Shown here: piece by piece, positions 1 to 34,474 of the stretch
How positions within the stretch are numbered: the stretch's first letter is position 1
How the letters are laid out: each line of letters opens with the position of its first letter
Assembly (NCBI GenBank): GCA_014382705.1
Contig: JACNJE010000054.1
Coordinates: 1 to 34,547, forward strand
Origin: Verrucomicrobiota bacterium
GTDB lineage: Bacteria; Verrucomicrobiota; Verrucomicrobiia; Limisphaerales; UBA1096
DNA: 34,547 nucleotides
Direction of reading: 5' to 3'
Notes under the pieces: model-generated
Databases searched by the model: none
What the model was told of the DNA's origin: nothing
What the model saw: the letters and a program-made list of their open reading frames with translations, nothing else
Translations under genes and position numbers: made by a program

Positions 1-1454
1 CGGAAACTTCTTCGAGTTCCGCGACCGCTACATCCGAAGACTCGACGGTCCGCCACCGCCAAGCTCATCACCGTACCGTTGACCCCGTAAATTGAAATCA
101 ACCGGCCCGTCGCCGCGTCGAGCGACACGGTGTACCCGTTGCCGCCGGCGAAGAGCGTCTGCCCGGCCAAGGCCATCGGCCCCAGTTCACCGGCCACCGC
201 CAACGGCCCCAACTGTTCACGGGCCATAAACCATTTCACCCGCGCGGCATTCAACGCCTCCTTTTCCTTGGAGATAGCCGTCAAGCGGCCGGTCGCCTGG
301 TTGAGTTCGGTCGTGGCCTTGGCCAAGTCGTCGGCGTTGCCTGCCTTGGCGGCGGCCTTGTGTCGGTCGCGAATCTCCGCGATCGACTTGACCATGGCGG
401 TCTCCTCCTTGTTCAGCTTGGGCACATCGGCGGTGGCCTTCGCGTTGGCTGCCCGGTCGATGGCATACAGTCCCTTCTGCGTGGCGAGGTAGGCGACCTC
501 CTCAGTCATCACCATGTCGATGGAGGGAAAACTCGCAAACTGGTCACCGCGGTTCGCGCCGGAAGTGGCGTCGAATGTGATCTTCGTGTCGGCGCCCTGA
601 TTATCGTTGCCGGCGTACAACTCGTCCCCCGCCATTTGCACCCACGCTCCGCCAACCTTGCCGCCAGCGTGGAGAAATTTTTTGAACTTACCCGAGCGTT
701 TATCGAACGCCGCCGGCATGCCGCGCCCGGTTGGCACATACAGGTTGTCGGCCGATGCCACGAGATAACCTTGCGGTGCCATGCCGCCGTATTGGTGGCC
801 CCAAGCCTGGTCGCCCGAGGTGTCGTTCAGCCAAATCTCCCTCCCGGTCTTCGCCTCCAACGCTGCCACGTAAAGCCCCTCGTACGGGAAAATCCCGGCG
901 GCGAGATACAGCGTCCCTCCCTCCATCAGCAACCCGGTCCGAACCGGCCAGAGCGAGATCATCCGACTGTTGCCGATCACCCGCTCGCCGCTCGGGCTGG
1001 GCCTGTATTTCCAGACAAGCGAACCGTCCGGGGCGTTGAGGCAGTAAACGTGTCCGTCATCGGAGCCGAAATATAGGCGGCCCCCGTGCACGACTGGCGC
1101 GAACCGAACCGATCCGTCCGCCGCGAAGGACCACCGCTCCGCCCCACTGCGGGTGTCCAGCGCGTAAACATGGTTGTCGACGTTGTTCCCGAAAAACAGC
1201 GTGCGCCCGGCCACCACCACGGGGTAATCGCGATCGGTGTGCATTCTCGGCGTCTCTTCACCCGGCATCGGCCAGGCGCTCACCGGCTGATGCCGTGAGG
1301 CATACACCCATTGCGGGTTCAACTGCCCTGACATCGGCTCCGGGCTGACCGACGAGCGGTTCCCGTCATGGCGATACGTCGGCCAGTCGGCGGCGATCAC
1401 GCCTTGGGCAAACAATGCAATTCCGGGCAACACCAACCAGCGGTAGGATTTCAT
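1..1454 (-). CDS. Secreted PQQ-like beta-propeller repeat protein (3' end cut by window edge)
   Basis: The reading frame opens at ATG 1454 on the minus strand and stays open for about 484 codons to the left edge, so the C-terminus is missing. The N-terminus (MKSYRWLVLPGIALFAQGVI then AADWPTYRHDGNRSS) is a signal peptide followed by the D-W-P-x-Y/F-R-x-D opening typical of secreted PQQ-like propellers. Propeller blades are recognisable from repeated phrases such as NNVDNHVYALDTRSGAERW and GSDDGHVYCLNAPDGSLVW (about residues 90-150). Residues about 335-410 form a charged, Ala/Lys/Glu-rich stretch (e.g. AEIRDRHKAAAKAG, RLTAISKEKEALNAAR) that looks like a helical hairpin inserted between blades. 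Family proteins bind PQQ or serve as scaffolds; no catalytic residues can be assigned here, so the substrate is unknown. It is divergent from the esterase gene at 1569, with 114 bases between the starts. Confidence 0.85.
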   Translation of the reverse strand, partial: MKSYRWLVLPGIALFAQGVIAADWPTYRHDGNRSSVSPEPMSGQLNPQWVYASRHQPVSAWPMPGEETPRMHTDRDYPVVVAGRTLFFGNNVDNHVYALDTRSGAERWSFAADGSVRFAPVVHGGRLYFGSDDGHVYCLNAPDGSLVWKYRPSPSGERVIGNSRMISLWPVRTGLLMEGGTLYLAAGIFPYEGLYVAALEAKTGREIWLNDTSGDQAWGHQYGGMAPQGYLVASADNLYVPTGRGMPAAFDKRSGKFKKFLHAGGKVGGAWVQMAGDELYAGNDNQGADTKITFDATSGANRGDQFASFPSIDMVMTEEVAYLATQKGLYAIDRAANAKATADVPKLNKEETAMVKSIAEIRDRHKAAAKAGNADDLAKATTELNQATGRLTAISKEKEALNAARVKWFMAREQLGPLAVAGELGPMALAGQTLFAGGNGYTVSLDAATGRLISIYGVNGTVMSLAVADRRVFGCSGRGTRRSF

Positions 1455-1547
1455 GCGCCGAAACCTGAAGTCGCCCCGTCGAAAAAACAAGGAGGAATCA
1501 CCCCGCCAGCCAAGCGCAGGCTTGCACCCTGTGCTGCGATCAACCAC

Positions 1548-1559
1548 GCTTGGCCAAGC
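1548..1559. repeat. Iterated palindrome copy in divergent intergenic region
   Basis: Perfect 12-base GCTTGGCCAAGC, extended by C and G on the outside, lying ten bases upstream of the esterase start. A weaker half-site pair (CCAAGCGCAGGCTTG) lies about 35 bases further left, as does an AAGGAGG sequence near 1489-1495 that has no in-frame start codon after it. The 114-base gap must hold the promoters for both divergent genes, but I cannot point to -35/-10 boxes. Confidence 0.8.
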
Positions 1560-1568
1560 GCACCCGTC

Positions 1569-3443
1569 ATGATGAAACGATTTCTCCCACTATTGGCGCT
1601 TGGCTCGCTGGCCCTGCCCGGCCAAGCGGCGGAGTTGAAGACGCCCGGCGACCGGATGTTTGCCGACTATTTCAAAATCGAAACCCAGCGACTGGCCGAC
1701 CACTGCCTCGCCGACATCGAGACGCTCGACGATTGGAATGCCAAAAAAAATCTCTACCGCACGCAACTCCTCGAGATGCTCGGCCTCGACCCCCTGCCGG
1801 AACGCACGCCGCTAAAGGCCACCGTCACCGGCACGGTGCAGCACGACGAGTTCGAGGTGCGCAAACTGCACTACCAGTCCAGCCCCGGCCTGTACGTCAC
1901 CGCGAATCTTTACGTTCCGAAAAACCTCACCGGCCCGGCCCCGGCGATCCTTTACGTTTGTGGCCACGGCCGAGTGAGAATTGACGGCGTCGATTACGGC
2001 AACAAAACCTATTACCAACATCACGGCGCGTGGTTTGCGCGGCACGGCTACGTCTGCCTCGTAATCGACACAATCCAACTCGGCGAACTCGAGGGCATTC
2101 ATCACGGCACATACCGGCATGACATGTGGTGGTGGAACTCGCGCGGCTATACGCCGGCCGGTGTCGAGGCGTGGAACTGCATCCGCGCGCTCGATTACCT
2201 CGAGTCGCTTGACGTCGTCGACAGCAGCCGCATCGGGGTCACCGGCCGCAGCGGCGGCGGCGCGTACAGTTGGTGGATCGCCACGATTGACGAGCGCATC
2301 AAGGTCGCCGCGCCGGTCGCCGGCATTACCGACCTGCAAAACCACGTGGTCGACGGCGTCGTCGAGGGGCATTGCGACTGCATGTACCACGTGAACACCT
2401 ACGGCTGGGACTTCGCCCAAGTCGCCGCACTCGTCGCGCCCCGCCCGTTGCTCATCCTCAACACCGACGACGACGGCATCTTCCCGCTCGACGGCGTCAA
2501 CCGGCTGTTCACGCAGGTTCGCCGCATCTACGGGTTGCACGGAAAAAAGAGCAACCTCGGCCTCGTGATCACCCCCGGCGGGCACGCCGACTCGCAGGAG
2601 CTGCGCGTGCCGGCGTTCAACTGGTTCAACAAGCACCTGAAGGGCAAGACTGTTTTGATCGACCAACCGGCAACCAAGCTGTTCCCCCCGCAGCAACTCA
2701 AGGTGTTCGAGCAACTCCCGAGCGGGGAACGAACGACGACCATTCACGACACCTTCCCGCGAATCGCCGCTGACAACGCCAAGGCCAAGCGCCCGGAAAT
2801 CATGGCCAACCTGCGCGAGAAAACCTTTGGCGGCTGGCCCAGGCGCGGGGGGCAATTGCGGCTCGAGAATGTGTCGGACACCAAGCGCGACGGCGTGCGT
2901 GTTGCCGTGTATGAGTTCGACAGCCAACCGGGAATCCGGTTGCAAATGCAAGTCGCGCACAAAGTCGGCTTGGCCAAGGGCGCGCCCGTCCACCTCGTGG
3001 TGCTCAACGACGGCCAAGCGGAAGGCGTCGCAGGGGCTTCCGGCGTGCGCGTCACTTTTTCGCCACGCGGCATCGGCCCGACGCGTTTGTCGCAGAACAA
3101 AAAACACCTCACGCAGACCCGCCGCCGTTTCATGCTGCTTGGCCAGACGCTCGCCGGGCAACAGGTGTGGGACGTGCGCCGCTGCATTCGCGCCGTACGC
3201 ACGCTCGAGCGCTGCGCCGGTGCGCCACTGGAATTGTGGGCCACCGGCGACGCCGCCAGCCTCGTCACGCTTGCGTCGTTGTTCGAGAGGAAGATCAGCA
3301 ATCTCAACCTCAGCGACTACCCAGCGACGGACCGGGAGCAGCCGGACTTTTTGAACATCTCCCGCTTCGCCACGCCCGCGCAGTTGCTCGACCTCGCCAG
3401 GCGCAAAATCGGGGTGAGACTCCAGGGCGGGACGCAACGGTGA
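1569..3443 (+). CDS. Secreted alpha/beta-hydrolase, acetyl-xylan-esterase-like
   Basis: 624 residues from ATG 1569 (a second ATG follows at once at 1572). The frame extends upstream, but the signal peptide MMKRFLPLLALGSLALPGQA fixes the start. The first ~360 residues are an alpha/beta-hydrolase of the acetyl-xylan esterase / prolyl-oligopeptidase-like type common in Verrucomicrobiota and Planctomycetota. The nucleophile is Ser228 in G-R-S-G-G, an acidic cluster D300-D302 lies in LILNTDDDG, and His339 lies in T-P-G-G-H-A-D. The remaining ~260 residues form a C-terminal extension with no motif I recognise. The likely role is periplasmic deacylation of a carbohydrate ester, inferred from fold and from the sulfatase and amine oxidase downstream. 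The stop overlaps a possible GTG start of the next gene, indicating an operon. Exact substrate unknown. Confidence 0.82.
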   Translation: MMKRFLPLLALGSLALPGQAAELKTPGDRMFADYFKIETQRLADHCLADIETLDDWNAKKNLYRTQLLEMLGLDPLPERTPLKATVTGTVQHDEFEVRKLHYQSSPGLYVTANLYVPKNLTGPAPAILYVCGHGRVRIDGVDYGNKTYYQHHGAWFARHGYVCLVIDTIQLGELEGIHHGTYRHDMWWWNSRGYTPAGVEAWNCIRALDYLESLDVVDSSRIGVTGRSGGGAYSWWIATIDERIKVAAPVAGITDLQNHVVDGVVEGHCDCMYHVNTYGWDFAQVAALVAPRPLLILNTDDDGIFPLDGVNRLFTQVRRIYGLHGKKSNLGLVITPGGHADSQELRVPAFNWFNKHLKGKTVLIDQPATKLFPPQQLKVFEQLPSGERTTTIHDTFPRIAADNAKAKRPEIMANLREKTFGGWPRRGGQLRLENVSDTKRDGVRVAVYEFDSQPGIRLQMQVAHKVGLAKGAPVHLVVLNDGQAEGVAGASGVRVTFSPRGIGPTRLSQNKKHLTQTRRRFMLLGQTLAGQQVWDVRRCIRAVRTLERCAGAPLELWATGDAASLVTLASLFERKISNLNLSDYPATDREQPDFLNISRFATPAQLLDLARRKIGVRLQGGTQR

Positions 3444-3451
3444 GCACCGCC

Positions 3452-4594
3452 ATGCCGGGGCCATACGATGCGATCGTTGTCGGCGTCGGCTCGATGGGTG
3501 CGGCGGCCTGTTATCACTTGGCCAAGCGCGGCGCGCGAGTGCTCGGCATCGACAGCCAATCGGTTCCCAACACGAACTCATCCTACAACGGCGACACGCG
3601 CGTCATCCGGTTGACCTACCAGGAGCATCCCAACTATGTGCCGCTGCTGCGCGATGCCTACCGGCTTTGGGAGGAGATCGGGCAGGAAACCGGCGCGACA
3701 CTGCTCCACAAAACCGGCGTGCTGTACATGGGCTTTCCGGACGGCGAGGCGATCCGTGGCGTCAGGCTCGCCTCCGAGACTCACAAGCTCCCCTGCTCCA
3801 CGCTGACGCACGGCGAGTTGGCCAAGCAGTTCCCGCAGTTCACTTTGCACGACGGCATGATCGGCGCGCTCGAGCCGGAGGGCGGCTATCTGCTCTCCGA
3901 GTTGGCCGTCGAGACGTACGCGCAAGCCGCACAGCGGCTTGGCGCTGAACTGCTCACCAACGAGCCTGTCATCGACTGGGCGAGCGATGGCAACGGCGTA
4001 ACCGTCCGCACCGCCACCGGCAGTCACGACGCGGCCAAGCTGATCCTCTGCCCCGGCGCGTGGGCCGGCGGATTGCTTCGACTGCCGGATGTGCCGCTCA
4101 CCGTCACACGGCAGGTGCTCGGCTGGGTGCAGCCTGGGCGGCCGGAGCTGTTTCAGCCCGGCACCTTCCCCGTGTGGAATATCGACCCCAACGGCGACGG
4201 CGATCTCACCGGCATTTACTACGGCTTCCCGATGAGCGGCGACGGGCTCAAGCTGGCGCGCCATCACCCCGGCCAAGCGATGGCGCCGGACGCGATCACC
4301 GACGAAACCTTCCCCGCCGACGAGGAGGAAATCGTCCTGCCGCTGCGCCGCTATTTGCCGGACGCGCTTGGCCAAGTGCGGACGATCAAGGTCTGCAAAT
4401 ACACCAACTCGGCCGACGGGCATTTCATCATCGACCGACACCCGGAGAGCGACCACGTGCACTTCGCCTGCGGCTTCAGCGGACACGGCTTCAAGTTCGC
4501 CAGCGTCATGGGCAAGGTGCTCGCCGAATTGGCGCTCGACGGCAAAACCGAGCGACCCATCGACTTCCTCCGCCTGTCGAGGTACTCCCACTAA
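3452..4594 (+). CDS. SolA-like FAD-dependent oxidase (N-methyltryptophan/sarcosine oxidase family)
   Basis: 380 residues. The start is a choice between ATG 3452 (MPGPYDAIVVGVGSMG, matching the N-terminus of E. coli SolA) and GTG 3440, which would overlap the upstream stop as GTGA; I prefer ATG 3452. Evidence is the dinucleotide-binding glycine motif G-V-G-S-M-G at residues 11-16 and the block KVCKYTNSADGHFIIDRHP near the C-terminus. In that block Cys315 corresponds to the cysteine carrying covalent FAD in monomeric sarcosine oxidase and SolA. Family enzymes oxidatively demethylate secondary amines with O2, releasing formaldehyde and H2O2. No signal peptide is seen, so it is cytoplasmic. In this operon it may act on an N-methylated amine or amino sugar released outside, but that is inference. 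The palindrome is translated inside it as HLAKRG, ELAKQF and ALGQVR. Confidence 0.85.
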   Translation: MPGPYDAIVVGVGSMGAAACYHLAKRGARVLGIDSQSVPNTNSSYNGDTRVIRLTYQEHPNYVPLLRDAYRLWEEIGQETGATLLHKTGVLYMGFPDGEAIRGVRLASETHKLPCSTLTHGELAKQFPQFTLHDGMIGALEPEGGYLLSELAVETYAQAAQRLGAELLTNEPVIDWASDGNGVTVRTATGSHDAAKLILCPGAWAGGLLRLPDVPLTVTRQVLGWVQPGRPELFQPGTFPVWNIDPNGDGDLTGIYYGFPMSGDGLKLARHHPGQAMAPDAITDETFPADEEEIVLPLRRYLPDALGQVRTIKVCKYTNSADGHFIIDRHPESDHVHFACGFSGHGFKFASVMGKVLAELALDGKTERPIDFLRLSRYSH

Positions 4595-4608: not shown

Positions 4609-4630
4609 TGCCAAGCGGTTGGCCAAGCGG
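4609..4630. repeat. Two degenerate palindrome units in tandem between solA-like gene and sulfatase gene
   Basis: TTGCCAAGCGG followed directly by TTGGCCAAGCGG: two head-to-tail units in the 50-base gap between the amine oxidase stop and the sulfatase ATG at 4645. It is one of several places where units repeat with a period of about 12 bases. Confidence 0.75.
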
Positions 4631-4644: not shown

Positions 4645-6069
4645 ATGAAGCGACTGCTGATAGCCCTGTTTCTGACTGCGCTTGGCCAGGCGGCCGCGGT
4701 GGCCAAGCCGTACAATGTGCTGGTCATCCAGACGGACGAGCACCACTTCAAGACGCTCGGCTGCTACGGCGGCAACATCGTCGGCACACCGCACATCGAC
4801 TGGATCGCGAAGAACGGCGCCATCGCCACGAGCTTTTACGCCACCACCCCGGTCTGCTCCCCTTCACGCGGGTCGCTGATCAGCGGGCGGTATCCGCAGG
4901 CCACGCCGGTCACGAACAACAACATCCCGCTTGGCGACCACGTCGTGACCTTCGCCGAGGTGCTGCGCCGGAACGGCTACGCCACCGGTTACGCCGGCAA
5001 GTGGCACCTCGACGGCTTGGGCAAACCGCAATGGGCGCCCAAGCGGAAATTCGGCTTCGACGACAACCGCTACATGTTCAACCGCGGGCACTGGAAGAAA
5101 TTTGAAATCACCGGGGACGGCCCGCGTGTCGCGGCCATCAAGCGCGGCAAACCGCATTACGGCGTCGAGAACGCCGACAACAAATCGTTCTCCACCGACT
5201 GGCTGGCCGACCGCCCGACCGACTTCATCAACGCCAACAAGGCCAAGCCGTTCTGCTACATGGTTTGCTTCCCCGACCCGCACGGCCCGAACACCGTCCG
5301 CAAACCGTACGACACAATGTACAAAAACGTGAAGGTGCCAATCCCGGTTTCCGTCAACAAGCCGCGCGCACAGACCCCGCGCTGGGGAGCGGGCAGCCCG
5401 AAGATCACCGCCGACACCGTGCGCGCGCTCATGCCGAAATATTACGGGATGGTGAAATGCCTCGACGACAACATCGGCCGCATCCTTGGCGCGCTCCGGA
5501 AAAACGGGCAGATTGACAACACGATCATCGTGTTCACCTCCGACCACGGCGACCTCTGCGGCGAGCATGGCCGACTCAATAAAGGCGTCCCGTACGAAGG
5601 CTCGGCGCGCATCCCGTTTCTTTTTTATTGTCCCGGCAAAATCCCGGCCGGCACCGTCGTCAACCAAGCGCTGAGCTGCGTGGACTTCGTGCCGACCCTC
5701 TTCGCCCTCACCGGCGACAAGTTGCCCGAGGGCGTCGAGGGCCGCGACGCCTCGGCTCTCTTTCGCGGCGCAAAAACCAAGTGGGACGACATTGCCATTC
5801 TCCGTTCGACCTCCGGCGTCAAGCCTTGGCTGGCCGCCGTCACCGACCGCCACAAACTCGTCTACTCCGCGCTGGGCGACCCGTGGCTGTACGACCTGCA
5901 AACCGACCCCGACGAGTTGCACAACGCATTCACCAATCCCGGTTCCGAAAAAATCGTCCGGCGACTCACCGCCAAGCTGGCCACCTACGCCAAGCGACAC
6001 AACGACCCTTATGCCACCGACCCTCAGATTAAAGCCGACATGGCCCAAGCGCTTGGCCAAGCGCAGTGA
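4645..6069 (+). CDS. Secreted type I (formylglycine) sulfatase
   Basis: 474 residues from ATG 4645. The frame is open further upstream, but the signal peptide MKRLLIALFLTALGQAAAVA places the start. The sulfatase signature C-S-P-S-R is at Cys71, the cysteine converted to formylglycine by a maturase, and is followed by GSLISGRYPQ. Metal and substrate residues are visible in VLVIQTDEHH (D31), AGKWHLDG and FTSDHGDLCGEHG. Length and motif order fit the arylsulfatase / choline-sulfatase-like S1 family. It hydrolyses sulfate esters in the periplasm or outside; the particular sulfated substrate cannot be read from sequence. The gene follows the amine oxidase by 50 bases and its stop overlaps a GTG start of the next gene. 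The last residues, AQALGQAQ, are encoded by a double copy of the iterated palindrome (6045-6064). Confidence 0.9.
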   Translation: MKRLLIALFLTALGQAAAVAKPYNVLVIQTDEHHFKTLGCYGGNIVGTPHIDWIAKNGAIATSFYATTPVCSPSRGSLISGRYPQATPVTNNNIPLGDHVVTFAEVLRRNGYATGYAGKWHLDGLGKPQWAPKRKFGFDDNRYMFNRGHWKKFEITGDGPRVAAIKRGKPHYGVENADNKSFSTDWLADRPTDFINANKAKPFCYMVCFPDPHGPNTVRKPYDTMYKNVKVPIPVSVNKPRAQTPRWGAGSPKITADTVRALMPKYYGMVKCLDDNIGRILGALRKNGQIDNTIIVFTSDHGDLCGEHGRLNKGVPYEGSARIPFLFYCPGKIPAGTVVNQALSCVDFVPTLFALTGDKLPEGVEGRDASALFRGAKTKWDDIAILRSTSGVKPWLAAVTDRHKLVYSALGDPWLYDLQTDPDELHNAFTNPGSEKIVRRLTAKLATYAKRHNDPYATDPQIKADMAQALGQAQ

Positions 6070-6511: not shown

Positions 6512-6527
6512 CCGCTTGGCCAAGCGG
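6512..6527. repeat. 16-base perfect palindrome between convergent genes
   Basis: CCGCTTGGCCAAGCGG fills almost all of the 22 bases between the stop of the membrane protein gene and the stop of the minus-strand gene at 6529. As RNA it could form an 8-bp stem only if the loop were opened, and no U-tract follows, so it is a poor intrinsic terminator. It is best treated as a strong member of the iterated palindrome family. Confidence 0.75.
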
Positions 6528-6528
6528 G

Positions 6529-6774
6529 TCAGTCGCCGAGGAAAAACTCCGGCGGGAGGAACCAGAGAGGCGAATCGTTGCGCAGTCGAGTGGTGACGTT
6601 GGCCAAAGCGGTGGGCAGAACCGACCCGAGACGCGTATCGTCAAGGCCGATTTCACTGAACCGCTCGAGAAGGAATTGTTCCGTTCCCAACCCCTCGTCG
6701 TAGCCGGGGCGGCGGATGCCGAATGAGATGATGCGCCCGATCTCGTCGAGCATGCTGTTCGCGGAGAATTTCAT
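6529..6774 (-). CDS. Short protein, possibly the N-terminal remnant of a longer hydrolase
   Basis: 81 residues starting at ATG 6774, which overlaps the stop of the deacetylase gene as ATGA. The N-terminus (MKFSANSMLDEIGRIISFGI then RRPGYDEGLGTEQFLLERFS) reads like the first ~50 residues of a metallopeptidase- or esterase-type hydrolase, where a short helix and E-Q-F-L-x-x-R-F-x-E-I-G-L precede the first domain. After about residue 50 the sequence (LPTALANVTTRLRNDSPLW) loses that character and stops just before the 16-base palindrome at 6512-6527. It may be a real small gene coupled to the deacetylase, or a 3'-truncated remnant. The family impression is from memory and weak. Confidence 0.45.
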   Translation of the reverse strand: MKFSANSMLDEIGRIISFGIRRPGYDEGLGTEQFLLERFSEIGLDDTRLGSVLPTALANVTTRLRNDSPLWFLPPEFFLGD

Positions 6775-7718
6775 TTCCGGTGCGTCCGTTGCAGTTCGCG
6801 CAGCGGACGGTAGCCGATCCGGATGATGCCCTGTTGCTTGACCAGCTTCTTCATCTCGGCGTCGTTGGTGAACGTCTCGTATTCCTCCCCGCGCGTTTTC
6901 CAACTGTTGGTGATGTGCCGCAGTTCGTCGGTCGGCTTGGCGGCGTGGATGAACAACTCAGTGACACCCGGCTTAAGATTTCGCAGCGTTTTCATCCAAT
7001 ACGCCTTCACCCCTTTTTTCGACTCGTCGAGATCGTCAAAAATAAGATCGTCCGGAAACACGATTCCCTTCGCGGCAAACTGCCCCCGCAATTCACCGAA
7101 ACCAAACCGCGCCGCCGTGGATTGCGACGGCATCCGCAGCGGCAGGTCGAACTCCAGCGCGAGTTGCTGGTAAACCCGCACGTAGCGCGGGTCGTAATTC
7201 AGCGCGCCCATGTGCGTGTCGAGATGCGTCACGTCGATCCCGGCGTCGAGCGCCTTTTGGATCTGCGCGCGGGCCTCGACCAGCGCCTCCTCCGGCGTGG
7301 CGTGCTGGTAAACCTCCAGCACGGAACGCCACAGGTAGCCTTCGTTGTCCAGCAGGCCCGGCACCAGATCACGAGAGGCGACCGGCCCCCAGCGATACAC
7401 CTGCCACTCGGAGGTGTGGGCGAGGTGGATTCCGAAATCCATTTTCGGATTGGCCTTGGCGTAGCGGGCGATCTCCGTGAACCACGGGCACGGCACCATG
7501 ATGGTGGCGGAGGTCATGAGGCCGCGCTCGAGCGAGTCGATGGTGGCGTCGTTGGCGGCGTGGCACATGCCGGTGTCGTCGCCGTTGATAATCAGCAGCT
7601 TGTCGGTGGCCTTGTAGCCAAGTCGCTCGGCGAGCGTCGGGTCGTCGGCCTTGGCCAAGGGGGCGGCCAAGGCAGCGGTCAACGCCACGGCCAAGGCGTT
7701 TTTTGTGAGCCAGTTCAT
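6771..7718 (-). CDS. Exported YdjC/ChbG-family carbohydrate deacetylase-like protein
   Basis: 315 residues from ATG 7718 with a signal peptide (MNWLTKNALAVALTAALAAP then LAKADD). The family's metal-site elements are present: INGDDTGMCHAAND (D47, D48, H53), DFGIHLAHTSEW and DVTHLDTHMGAL. YdjC/ChbG proteins remove acetyl groups from N-acetylated oligosaccharides such as chitobiose; E. coli ChbG is cytoplasmic, whereas this one is predicted to be exported, as often in this phylum. It is divergent from the Gfo/Idh/MocA gene (115-base gap). The signal peptide cleavage region P-L-A-K-A is encoded by a copy of the iterated palindrome at 7651-7658. The stop overlaps the start of the short downstream gene by 4 bases. 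Confidence 0.82.
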   Translation of the reverse strand: MNWLTKNALAVALTAALAAPLAKADDPTLAERLGYKATDKLLIINGDDTGMCHAANDATIDSLERGLMTSATIMVPCPWFTEIARYAKANPKMDFGIHLAHTSEWQVYRWGPVASRDLVPGLLDNEGYLWRSVLEVYQHATPEEALVEARAQIQKALDAGIDVTHLDTHMGALNYDPRYVRVYQQLALEFDLPLRMPSQSTAARFGFGELRGQFAAKGIVFPDDLIFDDLDESKKGVKAYWMKTLRNLKPGVTELFIHAAKPTDELRHITNSWKTRGEEYETFTNDAEMKKLVKQQGIIRIGYRPLRELQRTHRK

Positions 7719-7762: not shown

Positions 7763-7787
7763 CGGCCAAGCGCTTGGCCAAGCGCGG
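7763..7787. repeat. Double palindrome in divergent promoter region
   Basis: CGGCCAAGCGCTTGGCCAAG followed by CGCGG. It contains two overlapping perfect palindromes, CCAAGCGCTTGG (7766-7777) and GCTTGGCCAAGC (7772-7783). It lies in the 115 bases between the divergent deacetylase (start 7718) and Gfo/Idh/MocA (start 7834) genes, so it could overlap promoters or act as an operator as well as belonging to the genome-wide family. Confidence 0.8.
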
Positions 7788-19673: not shown

Positions 19674-19677
19674 CGGC

Positions 19678-23240: not shown

Positions 23241-23262
23241 CGCTTGGCCAAGCGCTTGGCGG
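23241..23262. repeat. One and a half palindrome units after the Mrp operon
   Basis: CGCTTGGCCAAGCGCTTGGC plus GG: GCTTGGCCAAGC (23242-23253) overlapping CCAAGCGCTTGG. It lies six bases after the stop of the last Mrp gene, in the 99-base gap before the LamG gene. The gap has no obvious U-tailed terminator. Confidence 0.75.
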
Positions 23263-23334: not shown

Positions 23335-26300
23335 ATGAAACTCATCCGTTCATTCAACCGCTCAGGCGCTGTTTACGCCTGTGTTCTCGCTGTTCTGATT
23401 GCAACACCGCGCCTGGCCACGGCGGAGATCACCGGGCAATGGAATTTCACCGACGGCTTGGCGGCGGAGATCGGGCAGGATCTCGAGTGGAATTATGAAC
23501 AAGGCGAGGCCAAGCTTGGCAAAGCGAGCGAACTCAAGGCCAAGCCCATCAACGGCGAAGACCCGATGGTGCTCAGTTTTCCCAACAGCAACCCCGAATC
23601 AGAGTTCAGCGGGCTGGACGTCTACCACGGCGGCGAGCCCAACGGCGGCTCCGACTGGCTGCTCAACCAGTACACGGTCGTCATGGACTTATTTTACTCG
23701 ACGCGCTCCTACAACAAGCCAAGGGCGCTGATCGCACTGAACGATTTTGAAGGGCCACAACTCCTGGTCAGCACCAGCAACGGGATCGGCAGCCGTTCGT
23801 TCCACGGCAAGCTGCGGCCCAACCGCTGGCACCGTGTGGCGCTGACCGTGGATCACGTCTCCGGCGAGGCCAACTATTTTGTCGACGGCGTGCATGTCGG
23901 CACCGAGCAGATCGGCAAAGCAACGGACAACGACGGCCGGCTCGCCATGGAAGATCTGTTTTACCTTTTCAAGCACCCCTCCGAGTCCTACGGCGGATTC
24001 ATCAGCAGCCTGCAGTTTCGCGACGAGGCGGTGCCGGCGTCGGTGATCGAGGCGCTAGGCCAGCCGGACGCCGCCGGCATCCCCTCCGAGCCCCCGGCCA
24101 AGCCGTACCTGGTCTCCGTAACGCCGAAGCCGACGCCGTTCCGGCGCCCCGTGCCGACCGATATCCTGCCGAACACCGTCATCCAATCCACTTGGAAAGA
24201 CGGCACGGCGTCAATGAAAGAAGGCACGGCCAAGCTGCATCTCAACGGCCAAGCGCTCGACGCCACGGCCAAGCGCACCGAGAACATGGTCACAATTTCC
24301 GCGATGCCGCAGGCGTTGCTCGAGCCGCTGGGCAACTACGAGGTGCTCGTGACGTTCGACGACAGCAACGGCGAGAGCCACTCGAAGCAATGGCGCTTCA
24401 CGGTGACGGATTTTCAGAAATTGCCGGCCGACATCGCCCTGCCGGTCAGCATGGGGAGCGAGACCGGTTTTCTGGTGCGCTCGGCGCAGGCCACCGCCGA
24501 GGCGGCGATCCGGCATGACTTCAGCCGGGCCATCCACCAACTCGAGGGCATCCTGACCGACACCGCCGGCAACGCCGTTGAAAATGTCGCCTATCCGCCC
24601 GAGGGCGGCGGCGGGTTCGACCTGATGGAATGGGTCGATTTCCAGAAGGACGGGTCGATTTTCGGGCACTTTGAGATGGAGGAGTATTTCCCCGGCATCC
24701 CCGGCGAGGAGGATCACGACACGAATTTCAGCACCGAGGTGCTGACGTACTTGGCGCTCAAGGCGGGGACGCACCGTCTCGGTGTCACCGTCCACGTATC
24801 CAAGCCTGATCAGAATGATGAGGACCGGTTCAAGGTGTTCGTCGGCGCGAGCGCCCGCGACCGGTTCGCGCAGGAGATCGGCAGCTTCGAGTTGACGCTG
24901 CTTGGCTTCCGCGACGGGCCGAACGAGACGACGTTCGACTTCACCGTCGAAAAGGAGGGACTGTACCCATTCCGGATCGTGTACTGGAACAAATCGCGGA
25001 ACGCCGCGCTCGAGTTTTACTCGGTCGATCTCGAAACCGGGGAGCGCGTCCTGATCAACGATGCGGAAAATGATGCCGCCATCATGGCTTACAGTTCGGC
25101 GGGGCAGGTTCGTCAACCGTACGTCGCCCTGGCCGGCCCCGCGCCGGGCACCTCCGGCAACAGCAAGGAGACACCGATCTCCATCGTGCTCGCCGACGAC
25201 GAAACCAAGGTCGCTGCCGACTCGGTGAAACTGTACGTCAACCGCCGCCTCGCCAAGCCAAGCGTGACGAAAGACGGGCGTCACACGCACATCGAGTTTC
25301 AGCCGGAACACAAGAGCCTCAGCGAACTTGATTACGATGTGAAGCTGACCTTCGACGATTCCGCCGGCAACACCCTCACGCGCGAGTGGCGTTTTAGCGT
25401 CGATGCACGCGACGAAATCGAGATCACTGGCTACTGGAATTTCGGCAGCAAACTCAAGGCCGCCATCGGCAGCGACCTTGCCTATCTCGATGGCCCGAAC
25501 GGCGCGACCGCCTCAGCGACGGAGTTTGGCACGACAACCGACTTTGGGCTGCCGGACATCGGCGGCAAGCCGGCCAGCGTGATGAAGGTTGGCCACGTCG
25601 GCTCCAACGCAAACTTTGGCTACCTCATGGAACACGGCGTCTCTCCCAATGGAGGTGGCAAAAAAATCAACCAATACACCCTTATTTACGACGTCTTTTT
25701 CACCGGCACCGGCAGCGGCTGGGCGTCCATGCTGAACATGGACAGCCAGGGCGACGGCGATCTGTTTTGGCGGCGCGGCGACGGCGGCCTTGGCCAAGGC
25801 GGCGGCGGCTACGAGCCGGACGACCCCGAAATCAAGGTCAACAAGGGCCAATGGCATCGCATCGTTTTGGCCGTCGACTTGGCCAAGGGCGTTTACGAGA
25901 AATCTGTCGATGGCCAATACCACTCCGCCCAGGCCAACGCCGGACTGGACGGGCGGCAATCGATGAAGCCAAGCGCGTGGCTGTTCAACGACAATGACGG
26001 CGAGAACGGCGAGGTGTACGTGGCGGCGGTGCAGGTGCGAAACGGCAAGGTCAGCCGCGACGAAGCCAAAGCGCTCGGCGCCGCCTCGGCGCTGGGCATC
26101 CCGATGCCGACGCCGGTGCGCGGGCTTTGGAGTTTTGACGAGGGCGACCTCTCGGCCACGCTTGGCCAAGCGCTTGGCTACCTCGACGGCGCGAAGGGCG
26201 CGACCGCCGGGGCCACCGAGTTCGGCACCACGGAGTCGTTCGGCATCGACGGCATCGACGGACAGACGGCGAACGTCATGAAAGTCGGCCACGTCGGCTC

Positions 26301-27525: not shown

Positions 27526-28067
27526 CCCGCCAAGCGGTCGAGCAACCGCGCCGCGTCGGTTTCCATGAAGAACAGGTCGCGATGGTTTGAGTGCAGGAAT
27601 CCGTCCCGCTCCATCGTCGCGAAGAAGCCGTCAACGCCGTCGTAAAAGCCGCCGACGTTGAGCAGCGCGACCGGCTTGTCGTGGTAGCCGAGTTGCCGCC
27701 ACGTCACCGCCTCGAAGAATTCCTCCATCGTGCCGATGCCGCCCGGCAGTACGATGTAGGCGTCGCTCAATGCGTGCATCTTCGCCTTGCGCTCGTGCAT
27801 GGTGCCGACCATGTGCAGGTCGGTGAGCCCTTCGTGCGCCAGTTCGCGGTCGACCAGTTTTTCCGGGATGACGCCGGCCACCTTCCCTCCCGCGGCCAAG
27901 GTCGCATCGGCCAAAACCCCCATCAGGCCGACGTTCCCCGCTCCGTAAACCAATCCCAGACCCCGCTCCGCAATCGCTTGGCCAAGCGTACGGGCCACCT
28001 CGGCGAACGCGGGGCGGTTCCCTGCCGACGCGCCACAAAAAACGCAGATATTCCGCACCGTCCGCAT
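27522..28067 (-). CDS. LOG-family nucleotide 5'-monophosphate phosphoribohydrolase
   Basis: 181 residues from ATG 28067. The Rossmann-like N-terminus ICVFCGASAG and VYGAGNVGLMG is followed by HERKAKMHALSDAYIVLPGG and the diagnostic P-G-G-x-G-T-x-x-E (PGGIGTMEE, 108-116). LOG proteins hydrolyse nucleoside monophosphates, including cytokinin riboside monophosphates, to free base and ribose 5-phosphate; in bacteria the physiological substrate is often plain AMP or purine nucleotides, so the old label 'lysine decarboxylase' would be wrong. Cytoplasmic. It is transcribed with the sulfatase upstream (18 bases between them), a pairing with no obvious logic. A palindrome copy gives R-T-L-G-Q-A-I-A. 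Confidence 0.92.
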   Translation of the reverse strand: MRTVRNICVFCGASAGNRPAFAEVARTLGQAIAERGLGLVYGAGNVGLMGVLADATLAAGGKVAGVIPEKLVDRELAHEGLTDLHMVGTMHERKAKMHALSDAYIVLPGGIGTMEEFFEAVTWRQLGYHDKPVALLNVGGFYDGVDGFFATMERDGFLHSNHRDLFFMETDAARLLDRLAG

Positions 28068-28068: not shown

Positions 28069-28080
28069 GCTTGGCCAAGT
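28069..28080. repeat. Iterated palindrome copy between the sulfatase and LOG genes
   Basis: GCTTGGCCAAGT occupies most of the 18 bases between the sulfatase stop and the LOG start. A second, double copy (GGCCAAGCGCTTGGCCAACG, 28131-28150) lies inside the 3' end of the sulfatase gene, encoding A-L-A-K-R-L-A-A. Confidence 0.7.
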
Positions 28081-28085: not shown

Positions 28086-29618
28086 CTATTGCCGTAACCC
28101 GGTGCGCTTGGCCCATTCACCCCAGTCAGCGGCCAAGCGCTTGGCCAACGCAGGATGATTCGCCGCCAAGTCGGTGGTCTCCGTCCGGTCAGCCTCCAGA
28201 TCAAACAGCGACCATCTCTTGTCGAGTTTGTCCCAGACCACCTTCCAGTTGCCCTCGCGCAATGCGCGGTTGCCGGACCATTCCCATGCAATCTGGTCGT
28301 GCCCCTCCCGCGTACCGCCGCGCAGCACCTTCACGAGGCTTTTGCCCTCGACCGGAAGGATCGCGCGCCCGTTGTGTTTTTCGGGATAACCGGTGCCAGC
28401 CAACTCGAGAAACGTCGGCAGGAAGTCGATGATGTGGCCGACCTCTTTCGTGATCGCCCCTCTCGGCACGCGCCCCGGCCACCACGCGATGCACGACGTG
28501 GCGATGCCGCCCTCGTGCGCCCAGCTTTTGTAGCGGCGGAACGGCGCGTTCTGCGCCCAGCCCCACGACGGGCCGACGGCAGCGTAAAACTCCTTCGGCC
28601 CGGGAACGATCTTCGGCGAGCGCCCACCCGGTTCCTCAGCACAGCCGCCGTTGTCGGAGAGGAACAGCACCAGCGTGTTGTCGGCCTCGCCGCTCTGCCG
28701 CAGCGCCGCCATGAGGCGGCCGATGTTTTGGTCCATGCTGTCGATCATCGCGGCGTAAACCGCCATCCGCAAATCTTCGTGGTCGTGGTTGGCCGACGCC
28801 CAGTCGTACGCCCGCGAGTCGCGGCCGGACAGTTTCCACTTCGGATCGATCAGGCCCATTTTGACCATGCGCTCATGTCGCTGCCGCCGCAGGGTGTCCC
28901 AACCCATCCGGAATTTGCCAACGTACTTTTTGATGTCCTCCGGCTTGGCGTGCAGCGGGTAATGCGGCGCGGTGTAGCAAACGTGCAGGAAAAATGGCTC
29001 CTCTTTTTTCGAGAATTTCTCGACGCACTCGATGGCGTGATCGGTAAAGGCGTCCGTTGTGTAGTAGCCGTCCGGAAACTCGGAGATGTCACGGTCGTTG
29101 TGGCCGAACTTCCGGATGCGCCCGCCCTTGTACTTGGGGTCGCGCTGATTCGGGTCGAAGAAATTGCAGCAGCCGTCGAGCAGCCCATAATAGTCGTCGA
29201 AGCCGCGCCGGTACGGGTGCGTCGTCTCGCCAGAGCCGAGGTGCCACTTGCCGCTGAGCGCTGTCCGGTATCCGGCCAGTTTCATCGCCTCGCCCAGCGT
29301 GACCATGTTTTGCCGCAGCAACCCGCCCTTGCCCCGGCGCGGATACAGCCCGGTCAGGATCGACGCCCGCGTGGTCGTGCACTTTGCGTTGTTGTAAAAC
29401 TGAGTGAACCGCATCCCCTCCGCGGCGAGGCGGTCGAGGCTCGGCGTGCTGACCTCGCCTCCGTAGCAACCGATATCGCTCCACCCCATGTCGTCGCACA
29501 TGATCAACACGATGTTCGGCCGCTCCGCCGTCGTGCGCGCCTCCACCGGAGACGACACGCCAAGACCTGCCACGAACCCCATGAAAACGCCCAGCCGGAT
29601 TAGTCTGGATAAATGCAT
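28086..29618 (-). CDS. Secreted sulfatase with an atypical C-T-T-T-R active-site motif
   Basis: 510 residues from ATG 29618. A longer frame exists to 29678, but this start gives a clean signal peptide ([20 protein letters not shown], cleaved near VEA). The S1 sulfatase fold is shown by [20 protein letters not shown] (metal ligands D42, D43), [40 protein letters not shown] and [20 protein letters not shown]. The site that should read C-x-P-S/T-R reads C-T-T-T-R (Cys80), so the usual proline is missing. Either the maturase of this organism accepts it or the enzyme differs in activation. All other motifs look intact, so I do not call it dead. It is unlike the sulfatase at 4645 in motif and C-terminal part and is not a duplicate. 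Confidence 0.9.
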
Positions 29619-29691: not shown

Positions 29692-29703
29692 GCTTGGCCA
29701 AGT
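29692..29703. repeat. Iterated palindrome copy in divergent region before the thioredoxin-like gene
   Basis: GCTTGGCCAAGT, 18 bases before the ATG at 29721 and within the 102-base gap shared with the divergent sulfatase. It is followed by TTTTAATG. I cannot identify promoter boxes with any confidence. Confidence 0.65.
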
Positions 29704-30500: not shown

Positions 30501-31978
30501 GGCAAAAAAAATACATCCTTGCGCTGGATCAGGGAACAACCAGTTCGCGGGCGATTGTTTTTGATGCGCTTGGCCAAGCGGTGGCGGTGGCACAAAGGGA
30601 GTTCCCGCAACTCTATCCCAAGCCCGGCTGGGTTGAGCATGACCCCGCGACGATCTGGAAAACCCAGTTGAGCACGGCCAAGCGGGCGTTGCGGCTGGCC
30701 AAGCTTTCCGCCGCCGATATCTCGGCGGTCGGCATCACCAACCAACGCGAAACCACCCTCGTTTGGGATCGGGCCACCGGCAAACCGATCGGCAACGCCA
30801 TTGTCTGGCAGGATCGCCGCACCGCAAACTTTTGCGACGCATTGCGCCGGGACAAGGCCGACCGACTGATCCGCCGCAAAACCGGGCTGGAACTGGACGC
30901 CTACTTCAGCGCGACCAAGATCCGGTGGCTGCTTCGCAACACCAAGGGTGCCTTGGCCAAGGCGCGCGCCGGGCAAATGGCTTTCGGCACGGTCGACTCG
31001 TGGCTGGTCTGGAATCTCACCGGCGGACAAACCCACGTCACCGACACCACGAACGCCTCGAGAACGATGCTGTTCAATCTCCGCACCGGCGACTGGGATG
31101 ATGAACTGCTAAACCTGTTCGGCGTGCCTCGTTCGGTGTTGCCGAAGATCGTTTCGTCGAGCGAGGTGGTTGCCGAGACGCGATCGCTTGGCCAAGCGAT
31201 CCCCGTCGCCGGCATCGCCGGAGACCAGCACGCCGCCCTTTTTGGCCAATGCTGCCACAGGCCCGGCATGGTGAAGAACACCTACGGCACCGGCTGCTTC
31301 ATGCTCATGCACACCGGCGACAAGCCGATGGCATCCCGCAACAAACTGCTCAGCACAGTGGCGTGGAAAATCGGCAACAAGACGGAATACGCACTCGAGG
31401 GCAGCGTGTTCGTCGCCGGTGCGGTGATCCAGTGGCTGCGTGACGAACTGGGCCTCATCAAGTCGTCCGCCGGGATCGAGCGCTTGGCCGAGCGTGTGCC
31501 GGACAACGGCGGCGTCTACCTTGTCCCGGCGTTCACCGGACTGGGCGCACCGCACTGGAACCCACACGCGCGCGGCACGATCACTGGGTTGACCCGTGGC
31601 ACAAACAAGGCCCACATCGCCCGTGCCGCGCTCGAGGGTATCGCGTATCAAGTCAACGACATCCTCGCCGCGATGGAGCGTGACGCCGGCTTCAGGCTCC
31701 GCGAGTTGCGGGTCGATGGCGGCGCCAGCGCCAACAACCTGCTGATGCAATTCCAGAGCGACCTGTTAAACGTCCCCGTGATCCGGCCTGCAAACACTGA
31801 GACCACCGCCTTGGGTGCGGCGTACCTCGCCGGTTTGGCCGTGGGCGTTTGGAAAAGCAAGAGTGAGATTGCCAAGCAATGGAAAATCGCCAAGCGCTTC
31901 AAGCCCAAGATGAATCCCGCGAGCCGCAGGGAACGGCTCACCGGCTGGACCCACGCCCTGTCACAAGCCCAGCTTTGA
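30497..31978 (+). CDS. glpK: Glycerol kinase GlpK
   Basis: 493 residues from GTG 30497, overlapping the preceding stop as GTGA. It converts glycerol and ATP to glycerol 3-phosphate in the cytoplasm. FGGY-family motifs: [92 protein letters not shown], and [20 protein letters not shown]. Full length for the family. No glpF or glpD is adjacent; instead it is flanked by secreted proteins, and the next gene begins 3 bases later. Two perfect palindrome copies give F-D-A-L-G-Q-A-V (residues about 22-29) and [10 protein letters not shown] just before the active-site D-Q-H. Confidence 0.96.
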
Positions 31979-31981
31979 GTC

Positions 31982-34474
31982 ATGAAACTTTTTTTCACGC
32001 TTATCGTTTGCGCCACGGCGGCATCAGGCCTGAATGCCACCGAACTCGTCTGTCGATTGGTGGATTCCCAAACCGGACGACCCCTGGCCGCCCGGGTTTA
32101 CATCGAGAACAACCGGGGCGAATGGTTCTTCGTGGAATCCAACGCCCCGGAAGGTTCGGCTGTGCTCTACGACAAGACGAACTGGTTCCAGAAGGAGTCG
32201 TTTGAGAAACACACGACTGTCTCGGCGCACCCCTTCCGGGCCGACCTCCCGCCAGGCGACTACACGATCACGGTCGAGCGCGGCAAGGAGTACTTCACCG
32301 AAACCCAGTCGCTGTCGCTTGGCCAAGCGGGTGTGCAAATCGAAATCCGGCTGCGCCGCTGGATCGATCTGGCCAAGCGCGGGTGGTTCTCCGGCGACAC
32401 CCACCTCCACCGCACGCTGCAGGAACTGCCCAACGTCATACAAGCCGAGGATCTCAATGTCGCAATGCCGCTCACATACTGGGTGACCAAGTCCGGCACC
32501 CCACCGACGAGCGGCGACAAAAACATGGGCGGCGAGATTCCGGACGAGTTGATCACGGTCGATCCCACACACGTCATTTGGCCGCGTAACACGGAGTATG
32601 AAATATTCTCGGTTGGCCCGAAACGGCACACCCTTGGGGCGCTGTTTTTTCTGAACCACAAGTCGGTGTTCAACGAGGGCGTGCCGCCGTGGGGGCCGCT
32701 GGCCAGACGCGCCCGCGCGGAGGGGACGATATTCGACATGGACAAGCTCGACTGGCCGTTCTCGATGACCCTCCCACACAGTACCGGGGCGCGCCTTTAC
32801 GAGTTGGCCAACAACCATCTGTGGCGCACAAAGTTCGCCTACACGAAGTGGAACTCCCGCGCTCCGGGCTTTCTCCAACCCCCGGCCGGCAACACCACCG
32901 GCAACGAGGAGGAATGGATCAACTACACGCTCGGGCAGTATTACACGCTGCTCAACGCCGGGTTCGACCTCGTGCCCACCGCCGGGTCAGCCAACGGCGT
33001 GCATCCCGTGCCGGCCGGGTTCAGCCGCGTGTACGTGCATTTGCCGGACGGGTTCAGCTACGAAGGATGGCTCGCCGGCTTGAAGCGCGGCCGCAGCTTC
33101 GTCACCACCGGCCCGATGTTGTTCGCGACAGCAAATGGCCAACAGCCAGGCGTAAAAATCGGGCTCCCCCCGAACGGCGCCGAAGTGGTCGTCGCCGGCG
33201 AGGTCGTCAGTGAAAAGCCGGTTGCCTTTCTTGAACTCGTCGTCAATGGCCGGCCGGTTCTGAAGGTTCACTCCCGGCCAGAGACCGCGCCTTCCGGGGC
33301 GCGCCGGATGGCCTTCTCTGCCACGCTGCCGATCAAAACCAGCGGATGGATTGCCGTTCGCTGTTACGAGGAACGCCCCGGCGGACGGCTGCGCTTCGCG
33401 CACACCGGCCAATGGATGGTGAACGTTCCCGGCAAGCCACTCCTCCCATCGCCAGAGGAAAAGGAGTACCTAGTCGATCGCGTGCAGACGGAGATCGACC
33501 GCAGCGAAGGCGTCATCTCAGCGGAGGCGTTGGCCGAATACAACGCCGCCCTCGCGCACTACCAAAACCTTGCAACAAGCAACCCGCTCACCCCCGAGGC
33601 TCGAGCGCCCAAGCGCGACAGCGAACTCGAGCGCTGGCTCGAGAACATGGTCATCCACCACCGGTACACGCCACACGAGGTGCGCGCCGCCACCGGCCTG
33701 CCGTTGGCCAAGGTGCGGGAACAATTTGCCAGTCGAAACCTCCCCGGCGAGCGCTTGGCCAAGCGAACCGCAGATGCACCGTTGAAAGTGCTGCCGTACC
33801 CCGGCGGACGCCACCCGCGCATCGGGTTCCTCGACGGTGCGCTCGTGCCCCAGCGCGACAGCAAGGTCAGCATCTTCGCCCCGTGGGATCCGCACAGCTA
33901 CGCCGTGGTCGATGTCCCGGAAGCCATCTGGTCCAACCTTGGCCTGACCTACCTCGCCCACACGCACATCCCGACCATCTGGGATAAACAGGGCAAAAAA
34001 CTCGAGCCGCTCGAGTGGACACCCAATCCCGACGGCTCACTCAGCCTGCTGCGCCCGTTACCCAACGGCATCGTGTTCGGCAGCCGGGTGGCCCCCGGCA
34101 AAAAGATCGTCAAGATGAAGCTTTGGATTCGCAACGGATCACCTGAGCCACTCACCGGGCTGCGGGCGCAGGTGTGCGTGATGCTCAAGGGCTTGTCTGG
34201 CTTTAATCAACGCATCCGTGCCAACAAAATAATAGACGGCAACTGGGTGGCCTGCCGTGATAGCGACGGCCAGCGATGGATCATCACCGGCTGGGAGCCG
34301 ATCCACCGGCCGTGGGAAAACCCGCCCGTACCCTGCCTCCACGCCGACCCCTCCTTCGCCGACTGCCCCCCAGGCAAAACGGTCGAAGCCAACGGCATTC
34401 TCGCCTTCCACGAAGGCCCCGATGTGAAGCAGCGAATCCGCAAATTGAGAGCAACCCATTTTCCCGACCGTTAG
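31982..34474 (+). CDS. Secreted CehA/McbA-type metallohydrolase-domain protein
   Basis: 830 residues from ATG 31982, with a signal peptide (MKLFFTLIVCATAASGLNA). An N-terminal carboxypeptidase-regulatory-like strand domain (about 22-125, DSQTGRPLAARVYIENN, LPPGDYTITVERG) precedes a PHP-like domain that opens with GWFSGDTHLHRT (H141, H143) and continues through PHSTGARLYEL, FDLVPTAGSANGVHP and GRSFVTTGPML, as in CehA/McbA proteins. From about residue 490 there is a charged helical stretch, then a C-terminal strand-rich domain (IGFLDGALVPQRDSKVSIFA to the end) that I do not recognise. It is probably a periplasmic metal-dependent phosphoesterase or related hydrolase. Third gene of the thioredoxin-like/glpK operon (3-base spacing). 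It carries the palindrome as SLGQAG, ERLAKRT, PLAKVR and the half-site DLAKRG. Confidence 0.82.
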   Translation: MKLFFTLIVCATAASGLNATELVCRLVDSQTGRPLAARVYIENNRGEWFFVESNAPEGSAVLYDKTNWFQKESFEKHTTVSAHPFRADLPPGDYTITVERGKEYFTETQSLSLGQAGVQIEIRLRRWIDLAKRGWFSGDTHLHRTLQELPNVIQAEDLNVAMPLTYWVTKSGTPPTSGDKNMGGEIPDELITVDPTHVIWPRNTEYEIFSVGPKRHTLGALFFLNHKSVFNEGVPPWGPLARRARAEGTIFDMDKLDWPFSMTLPHSTGARLYELANNHLWRTKFAYTKWNSRAPGFLQPPAGNTTGNEEEWINYTLGQYYTLLNAGFDLVPTAGSANGVHPVPAGFSRVYVHLPDGFSYEGWLAGLKRGRSFVTTGPMLFATANGQQPGVKIGLPPNGAEVVVAGEVVSEKPVAFLELVVNGRPVLKVHSRPETAPSGARRMAFSATLPIKTSGWIAVRCYEERPGGRLRFAHTGQWMVNVPGKPLLPSPEEKEYLVDRVQTEIDRSEGVISAEALAEYNAALAHYQNLATSNPLTPEARAPKRDSELERWLENMVIHHRYTPHEVRAATGLPLAKVREQFASRNLPGERLAKRTADAPLKVLPYPGGRHPRIGFLDGALVPQRDSKVSIFAPWDPHSYAVVDVPEAIWSNLGLTYLAHTHIPTIWDKQGKKLEPLEWTPNPDGSLSLLRPLPNGIVFGSRVAPGKKIVKMKLWIRNGSPEPLTGLRAQVCVMLKGLSGFNQRIRANKIIDGNWVACRDSDGQRWIITGWEPIHRPWENPPVPCLHADPSFADCPPGKTVEANGILAFHEGPDVKQRIRKLRATHFPDR

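Follow-up and report, generated by a model that had tools for sequence, protein, structure and literature searches.

The uptake signal sequences (USS) of Pasteurellaceae and the DNA uptake sequences (DUS) of Neisseriaceae leave a mark on the proteome, the Campylobacter uptake motif RAATTY is short, palindromic, methylated and tied to the uptake of self-DNA, and the Chi site of E. coli is strand-biased. To our knowledge, no DNA uptake sequence is known in the phylum Verrucomicrobiota. The H. influenzae genome is reported to contain 1,465 USS cores and that of N. meningitidis 1,892 DUS, such sequences being scarcer in constrained coding and newly acquired DNA (PMC7811141, available text), and in H. 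ducreyi they are weaker where competence genes are damaged (PMC1626085, available text). The sites of the highly iterated palindrome (HIP) of cyanobacteria, HIP1 (GCGATCGC), and of its alternates accompany cognate methyltransferases, and Elhai, who raised uptake as a role for HIP, argued against it from the essentiality of the methyltransferase (PMC4390886, available text). Here, another iterated palindrome, with the core octamer TTGGCCAA and the full form CGCTTGGCCAAGCG, is described from a 34,547-nt stretch of a Verrucomicrobiota bacterium (contig JACNJE010000054.1, assembly GCA_014382705.1; hereafter the window, to which all window coordinates refer), whose genome, G000, comprises 4,017,201 bp in 181 contigs and is 91% complete. 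It is argued, with some but far from full confidence, that the CGCTTGGCCAAGCG palindrome serves as a DNA uptake sequence whose abundance is sustained by natural transformation.

The octamer occurs 47 times in the window, as compared to a mean of 0.85 and a maximum of 4 in 100 dinucleotide shuffles, and is accompanied by 35 CTTGGCCAAG decamers, 21 GCTTGGCCAAGC dodecamers and 19 CGCTTGGCCAAGCG 14-mers. The sequence-only reading, in which a HIP1-like iterated palindrome in gaps and genes was first noticed, had counted by hand about 47 cores and about 21 dodecamers over positions 319..33762; both counts were reproduced exactly, the two positions hold as the start of the first core and the end of the last, and 37/47 cores lie within and 10/47 outside genes predicted by the simple gene calls made in this analysis. 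Its estimate of about 60% G+C was slightly low, with about 62% measured (62.5% in the window, 61.6% in a 349,301-bp sample of G000). A fall to background over the whole genome, named there as a possible refutation, was not seen, since G000 holds 4,314 octamers versus 143 for the same word reversed and 1,837 dodecamers versus 2, with a core density of about 1 per kb.

The enrichment is also far above Markov and codon-bias expectation, the other possible refutation named in the sequence-only reading. In the 349,301-bp sample, the octamer was counted 776 times on both strands versus 49 expected under an order-3 Markov model, in which the palindrome and its overlaps lead the enriched 8- and 10-base words. 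At orders 5 and 6 the expectation for the octamer becomes 442 and 692, because the sub-words are themselves pieces of the motif, and the dodecamer at order 6 is still counted 324 times versus 138 expected. Synonymous-codon shuffling, which preserves each protein and its codon usage, left 10.5 of 225 coding decamers (largest of 50 shuffles, 21) and 3.1 of 127 coding dodecamers; hence codon bias does not explain the enrichment. Chance and Markov composition were likewise rejected. The HIP1 word itself is at background in G000, with 18 copies in coding DNA versus 21.4 after shuffling.

Structurally, the motif is a perfect palindrome forming a 14-16 bp dyad of symmetric information content, and positional information mostly stops about 4 bases beyond the octamer on each side, giving SCGCTTGGCCAAGCGS. 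Perfect decamers (280 sites) exceed all 30 one-mismatch forms summed (209). Copies in the 349,301-bp sample are divided into 320/388 coding and 68/388 noncoding, with 86% of the sample called coding, which corresponds to a density of about 1.06/kb inside genes and 1.40/kb outside them. A further estimate for DNA between genes is 1.5-2.1/kb, and the coding sites are spread over the reading frames as 173, 127 and 20. An origin as an inserted mobile element was rejected, as flanks are near signal-free beyond about 16 bp and only 3/272 site alignments fall in gaps; an RNA hairpin as the selected unit was rejected, as double mutants in which palindrome and pairing are preserved reach 0-4x enrichment versus about 210x for the exact decamer.

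Distribution of the motif was followed in 21 genomes of the genus (G000-G020, G000 included), where more than 1,000 octamers are found in 18/21 genomes, or 17/20 without G000. The remaining three, G001, G005 and G019, contain 192-265 octamers, yet these are 4.5-4.9 times the reversed-word control. Outside the genus, 0-10 dodecamers were counted in each of 37 genomes from other families of the order and 0-7 in each of 386 further genomes of the phylum (423 outside in all). Thus, within the genomes searched, all of which belong to this phylum, the motif is a genus trait, and contigs can in practice be assigned to the genus by it. With an antiporter subunit (MrpD-like) from the window as a query, 18 loci were obtained, the 11 closest of which (74-89% identity) are metagenome-assembled genomes of Verrucomicrobiota; one of these 11 is labelled Pedosphaerales, and NCBI places Pedosphaera in Verrucomicrobiota, Pedosphaerales. 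In literature on HIPs, on over-represented palindromes and uptake sequences in Verrucomicrobiota and on the octamer itself, no report of the motif was seen among the matches listed.

Low abundance of the motif within the genus coincides with missing competence genes, an association confounded with G+C and partly with completeness. By profile search, comEC (PF03772) was found in 9/21 and dprA (PF02481) in 12/21 genomes, and in G000 Pfam confirms DprA with a winged-helix domain and ComEC with DUF4131. Neither gene was detected in any of the six motif-poorest genomes (G001, G005, G019, G002, G008 and G020), and at least one of them was detected in 13/15 others; Fisher's test gives p=5e-4 for 0/6 versus 13/15, with the cut at six genomes set after the data were seen and with no phylogenetic correction. 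Rank tests without a cut, equally uncorrected for phylogeny, give p=0.006 for either gene, 0.009 for dprA and 0.03 for comEC. From genome completeness, each gene should be absent from 1.5 of the six poorest genomes but is absent from all 6, and dprA should be absent from 3.1 of the 15 others and is absent from 3. The control genes recA and glpK are each present in 4/6 of the motif-poorest genomes. A loss can be seen directly in G020, where the block p408-pgk-tpiA-p588-p341-[ ]-nuoN-nuoM-nuoL-nuoI-nuoH is intact and a 156-bp gap without any dprA remnant takes the place of dprA, which lies between p341 and nuoN in G000 and in 7/8 aligned relatives, the stretch of the eighth (L318) ending before nuoN. 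The parts of G001 examined did not extend to the dprA or comEC locus, no comEC locus turned up in the stretches of G020 examined, and two matches to p747, in G001 and G020, were discarded as Ig-like repeat paralogues rather than the sought locus. Apart from these, a second, weaker DprA-family match of 109 bits is present at G000:C11:9913-10518.

A tree from concatenated recA and GlpK, in which G001 and G009 are represented by GlpK alone and G019, having neither marker, is unplaced, puts G001 with G005 (support 100) in one deep clade and G002 with G008 (97) as well as G020 in the other. More than one lineage is affected, with two independent losses established. A third, in G020, is likely rather than established, because the concatenated tree places it relative to G002 and G008 with a support of less than 40. 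The MrpD tree joins G020 with ARS81 (support 96), whose locus is motif-rich with 18 octamers in 11.6 kb.

Comparison of orthologous DNA revealed how individual sites arise and disappear. Sites of the window are retained above other NNGGCCNN words in 13/15 comparisons, several of which rest on fewer than 10 sites, for example 7/26 versus 9% for other words in G020 and 7/24 versus 6% in G009, with the reverse in G008 (2/9 versus 24%) and G006 (0/4 versus 10%). Most individual window sites turn over among relatives. Among 272 site alignments, which were made in both directions with 14 relatives (G013 and G018 gave none) so that one site may count against several, 136 are exact (68 shared sites seen from both sides), 59 show one-base differences and 3 fall in gaps; orthologous sites thus differ by substitution and not by insertion. 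In 30 of the 59 one-mismatch differences C stands for the outer T, which was rejected as a mutation signature, being synonymous in the two main frames. Relative to perfect dodecamers, the excess of one-mismatch forms amounts to 0.92 in G000 and to 1.11 in pooled high-density members other than G000, and reaches 3.5 in G020, 9.0 in G001 and 7.5 in G019, the last two values being rough as their samples hold 1 and 0 perfect dodecamers. This halo of one-mismatch forms in G020, G001 and G019 is read as decay of an ancestral motif. Within G000, a giant gene of lower G+C is depleted in the motif, with 6 sites in 20 kb versus about 23.5 expected; it consists of a single open frame, 6,666 aa long or more, spanning the whole stretch L008 (G000:C3:1-20000, G+C 0.561), possibly a giant, recently acquired or fast-evolving gene.

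The motif is dense enough to leave an imprint on proteins, where it is translated as R-L-A-K-R, A-L-G-Q-A or A-W-P-S. In G000, the tripeptide LGQ is observed 156 times versus 31 expected (5.0x), LAK 203 versus 45 (4.5x) and WPS 22 versus 4.5 (4.9x), so that LGQ ranks first and LAK second among the 4,077 tripeptides expected 8 times or more; when further motif-rich members are pooled, LGQ is again first and LAK fourth of 3,191. Permutations of the three tripeptides reach at most 1.8x in 14/15 cases, AKL being at 2.1x. The same tripeptides are at 1.1-1.4x in an outgroup of 20 other-family genomes of the order plus L039, 12 regions of which had been picked for a dodecamer, which biases its motif counts upward but not its tripeptides. 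In three low-motif genomes they are at 1.5-1.75x, close to this outside baseline. LAK is encoded by TTG GCC AAG in 145/203 cases and its leucine by TTG in at least 149/203, although TTG makes up 19% of Leu codons, and the motif codons TTG and CAA oppose the preferred CTG and CAG of the genome. Protein-driven LAK/LGQ repeats were rejected as the cause, since sites are denser between genes and present in all three frames.

Among the meanings offered in the sequence-only reading, an uptake or recombination tag is now the best supported, a binding site for a nucleoid or segregation protein is less likely, and for a site maintained by a methyltransferase the families tested give no support. The motif is best read as an analogue of DNA uptake sequences with palindromic form, because neither comEC nor dprA could be detected in the motif-poorest genomes, one loss of dprA is visible at an otherwise intact locus and the sites carry the evolutionary signature of a drive. 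Origin by point mutation, turnover, an effect on proteins, depletion in the giant gene of lower G+C, higher density between genes and decay where competence genes are missing form a pattern like that of uptake sequences under molecular drive (PMC7811141, PMC1939737 and PMC1626085, available text). In such a scheme, carrier cells would be naturally transformable, and a surface or pilus protein would recognise the palindrome, whether as a symmetric dimer or irrespective of orientation. DNA bearing CGCTTGGCCAAGCG would be favoured by the cells for uptake and recombination, with biased uptake and recombination as the putative driving force, and copies would build up by molecular drive while the lineage stays competent and would erode after the loss of competence. 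The density of about 1 core per kb is in the range of known uptake sequences, with which the motif also shares its presence in genes and gaps, evolution by point mutation and lower frequency in constrained coding or new DNA (PMC7811141, available text), and its apparent weakening where competence genes are missing would parallel that of H. ducreyi uptake sequences (PMC1626085, available text). However, it is not filed as a DUS or USS, because it is a perfect palindrome, whereas the sequences termed DUES are not palindromes (PMC1939737, available text), as had been correctly remarked of DUS and USS in the earlier reading. From Pasteurellaceae USS and Neisseriaceae DUS it differs further in its unrelated sequence, its phylum and in that its uptake role is predicted, and from methylated Campylobacter RAATTY in its strong over-representation and in that no shared methyltransferase was found.

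Several observations, in addition to the choice of the cut at six genomes, weigh against a role in uptake. Known uptake sequences not being palindromic (PMC1939737, available text), a perfect dyad would be new among them. It points more naturally to a DNA-binding protein acting as a homodimer, so that a dimeric protein of the chromosome may be the reader. Half-sites joined to an unrelated other half are enriched (139 versus 39.8), which fits other readers too, and spacing is near random and not more even than chance (coefficient of variation 1.05). Motif density rises with G+C (Spearman 0.67 over n=21 genomes, p=8e-4, uncorrected for phylogeny), which spans 0.39 to 0.62 within the genus as taken from samples of 4 to 349 kb per genome. 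When G+C is included in the model, the competence-gene term has p=0.21 for octamers and 0.19 for log dodecamers, and the rank test restricted to genomes of more than 50% G+C yields p=0.09; G+C may be either a mediator or the actual cause. Completeness is lower in genomes that have neither competence gene (p=0.02), and 6/15 of the genomes outside the six poorest lack comEC versus 3.1 expected. G008 and G002 are only modestly lower, at 0.50 and 0.54 octamers/kb with the next genomes at 0.63, and the high-density G009 and G017 have neither gene at 67% and 70% completeness. Synteny confirms one of six losses, that of dprA in G020.

Four other explanations were weighed. A homodimer that organises or segregates the chromosome, binding the dyad about once per kb with selection on the density of sites and not on their positions, would account for the symmetric 14-16 bp dyad, for tandem overlapping dyads at 12-13 bp spacing (11/367 gaps, an excess) and for turnover with density kept high in most members; it is nevertheless considered unlikely, as selection on density would hardly yield thousands of redundant sites that alter amino acids and does not predict the comEC/dprA pattern. 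Rather less probable is a HIP1-type site made and protected by modification-directed mismatch repair, with an enzyme outside the families tested. The motif is indeed like HIP1 and the alternate HIPs in being an iterated palindrome at about 1/kb, whose perfect copies exceed one-mismatch forms and which is lost in some relatives, and the cognate methyltransferases of cyanobacterial HIP sites (PMC4390886, available text) speak for such a mechanism. It differs from HIP1 in its greater length (14 bp), in its host, which is not cyanobacterial, and in that no methyltransferase common to the carriers was found in four families: C5 methyltransferase PF00145 is present in 1/21 genus genomes, G000 alone (G000:C53:508-1560; L005, L020), N4/N6 methyltransferase PF01555 and Dam-like PF02086 in 0/21 each, and PF02384 in 3/21 as marginal partial matches, one of them in a motif-poor genome. 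Control genomes gave matches in each of these searches, and Eco57I-type PF07669, phosphorothioation and BREX were not searched for. Elhai's argument against uptake (PMC4390886, available text) does not extend to carriers without such a methyltransferase, as seen here for the four families.

A bidirectional Chi-like recombination signal read by a strand-break repair nuclease would also be frequent and genome-wide, with half-sites enriched alone, and would likewise decay on loss of recombination; E. coli Chi, GCTGGTGG, is non-palindromic (PMC1939737, available text) and recA is kept in four of the six motif-poor genomes, which makes this reading improbable. Least credible by far is that the motif merely results from mutation toward high G+C or from codon bias, for which the rise of density with G+C within the genus speaks. 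As a sole cause this is refuted by genomes from other families of the order that, at a sampled G+C of 58%, do not have the motif, by synonymous shuffling, which removes most of the motif, and by motif codons that go against codon preference.

Returning to DNA uptake, it would imply, if true, that sequence-based recognition of self-DNA evolved outside Pasteurellaceae and Neisseriaceae, in uncultured bacteria, strongly enough to alter proteins. The further proposal that the motif is a third, independently evolved uptake dialect and the first palindromic over-represented one, whose carriers lose both motif and G+C together with competence, is made tentatively and falls somewhat short of what we would call probable; that loss of transformation lowers G+C through lost biased gene conversion is a conjecture. 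HIP1-like density without a methyltransferase shared in the families tested indicates that methylation may be unnecessary for such a genome, and HIP1 might, by the same analogy, belong to transformation and not to methylation, as a remnant or a functioning component. Because its species differ in motif content and in the presence of competence genes, the genus offers a natural experiment on the maintenance of iterated sequences.

All 47 motif copies of the window, listed without a strand (.), are as follows.

318..327, strand., CTTGGCCAAG copy
1547..1560, strand., full CGCTTGGCCAAGCG copy
2969..2978, strand., CTTGGCCAAG copy
3517..3526, strand., CTTGGCCAAG copy
3818..3825, strand., TTGGCCAA core only
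4367..4376, strand., CTTGGCCAAG copy
4619..4626, strand., TTGGCCAA core only
6050..6063, strand., full CGCTTGGCCAAGCG copy
6513..6526, strand., full CGCTTGGCCAAGCG copy
6599..6606, strand., TTGGCCAA core only
7650..7659, strand., CTTGGCCAAG copy
7771..7784, strand., full CGCTTGGCCAAGCG copy, overlaps a further half-site
9254..9263, strand., CTTGGCCAAG copy
9764..9771, strand., TTGGCCAA core only
10186..10199, strand., full CGCTTGGCCAAGCG copy
10405..10418, strand., full CGCTTGGCCAAGCG copy
10941..10954, strand., full CGCTTGGCCAAGCG copy
11403..11410, strand., TTGGCCAA core only
11518..11527, strand., CTTGGCCAAG copy
12354..12367, strand., full CGCTTGGCCAAGCG copy
13404..13411, strand., TTGGCCAA core only
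13580..13593, strand., full CGCTTGGCCAAGCG copy
15072..15085, strand., full CGCTTGGCCAAGCG copy
15208..15219, strand., GCTTGGCCAAGC copy
15631..15640, strand., CTTGGCCAAG copy
15997..16004, strand., TTGGCCAA core only
18022..18029, strand., TTGGCCAA core only
18784..18797, strand., full CGCTTGGCCAAGCG copy, within an antiporter subunit D-like gene
19253..19264, strand., GCTTGGCCAAGC copy
21380..21389, strand., CTTGGCCAAG copy
23107..23120, strand., full CGCTTGGCCAAGCG copy
23241..23254, strand., full CGCTTGGCCAAGCG copy, overlaps a further half-site
25789..25798, strand., CTTGGCCAAG copy
25878..25887, strand., CTTGGCCAAG copy
26159..26172, strand., full CGCTTGGCCAAGCG copy, overlaps a further half-site
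27975..27988, strand., full CGCTTGGCCAAGCG copy
28070..28079, strand., CTTGGCCAAG copy
28141..28148, strand., TTGGCCAA core only
29693..29702, strand., CTTGGCCAAG copy
30567..30580, strand., full CGCTTGGCCAAGCG copy, within glpK
30952..30961, strand., CTTGGCCAAG copy, within glpK
31185..31198, strand., full CGCTTGGCCAAGCG copy, within glpK
31242..31249, strand., TTGGCCAA core only, within glpK
32316..32329, strand., full CGCTTGGCCAAGCG copy
32804..32811, strand., TTGGCCAA core only
33704..33711, strand., TTGGCCAA core only
33752..33765, strand., full CGCTTGGCCAAGCG copy

Tandem dyads or half-dyads at 12-13 bp share CG between neighbours, as at window 7771-7784 and 23241-23254. Two scans of viral sequences, with 120 and 32 stretches, gave one motif match in each row among the matches listed and hence little information on phages of the genus. 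The 13.7-kb viral contig L158 (IMGVR_UViG_3300032087_002358), with terminase and DnaB-like genes, contains 8 TTGGCCAA versus 1 control word and is possibly a phage of this genus. Concerning other genes of the window, three antiporter or complex I subunit D-like genes lie in a row at 18168-23235, and a thioredoxin-fold protein is encoded at 29721-30500 with a match below the cut-off to the TUGYCR (seleno)protein model (62.5 of 100 bits).

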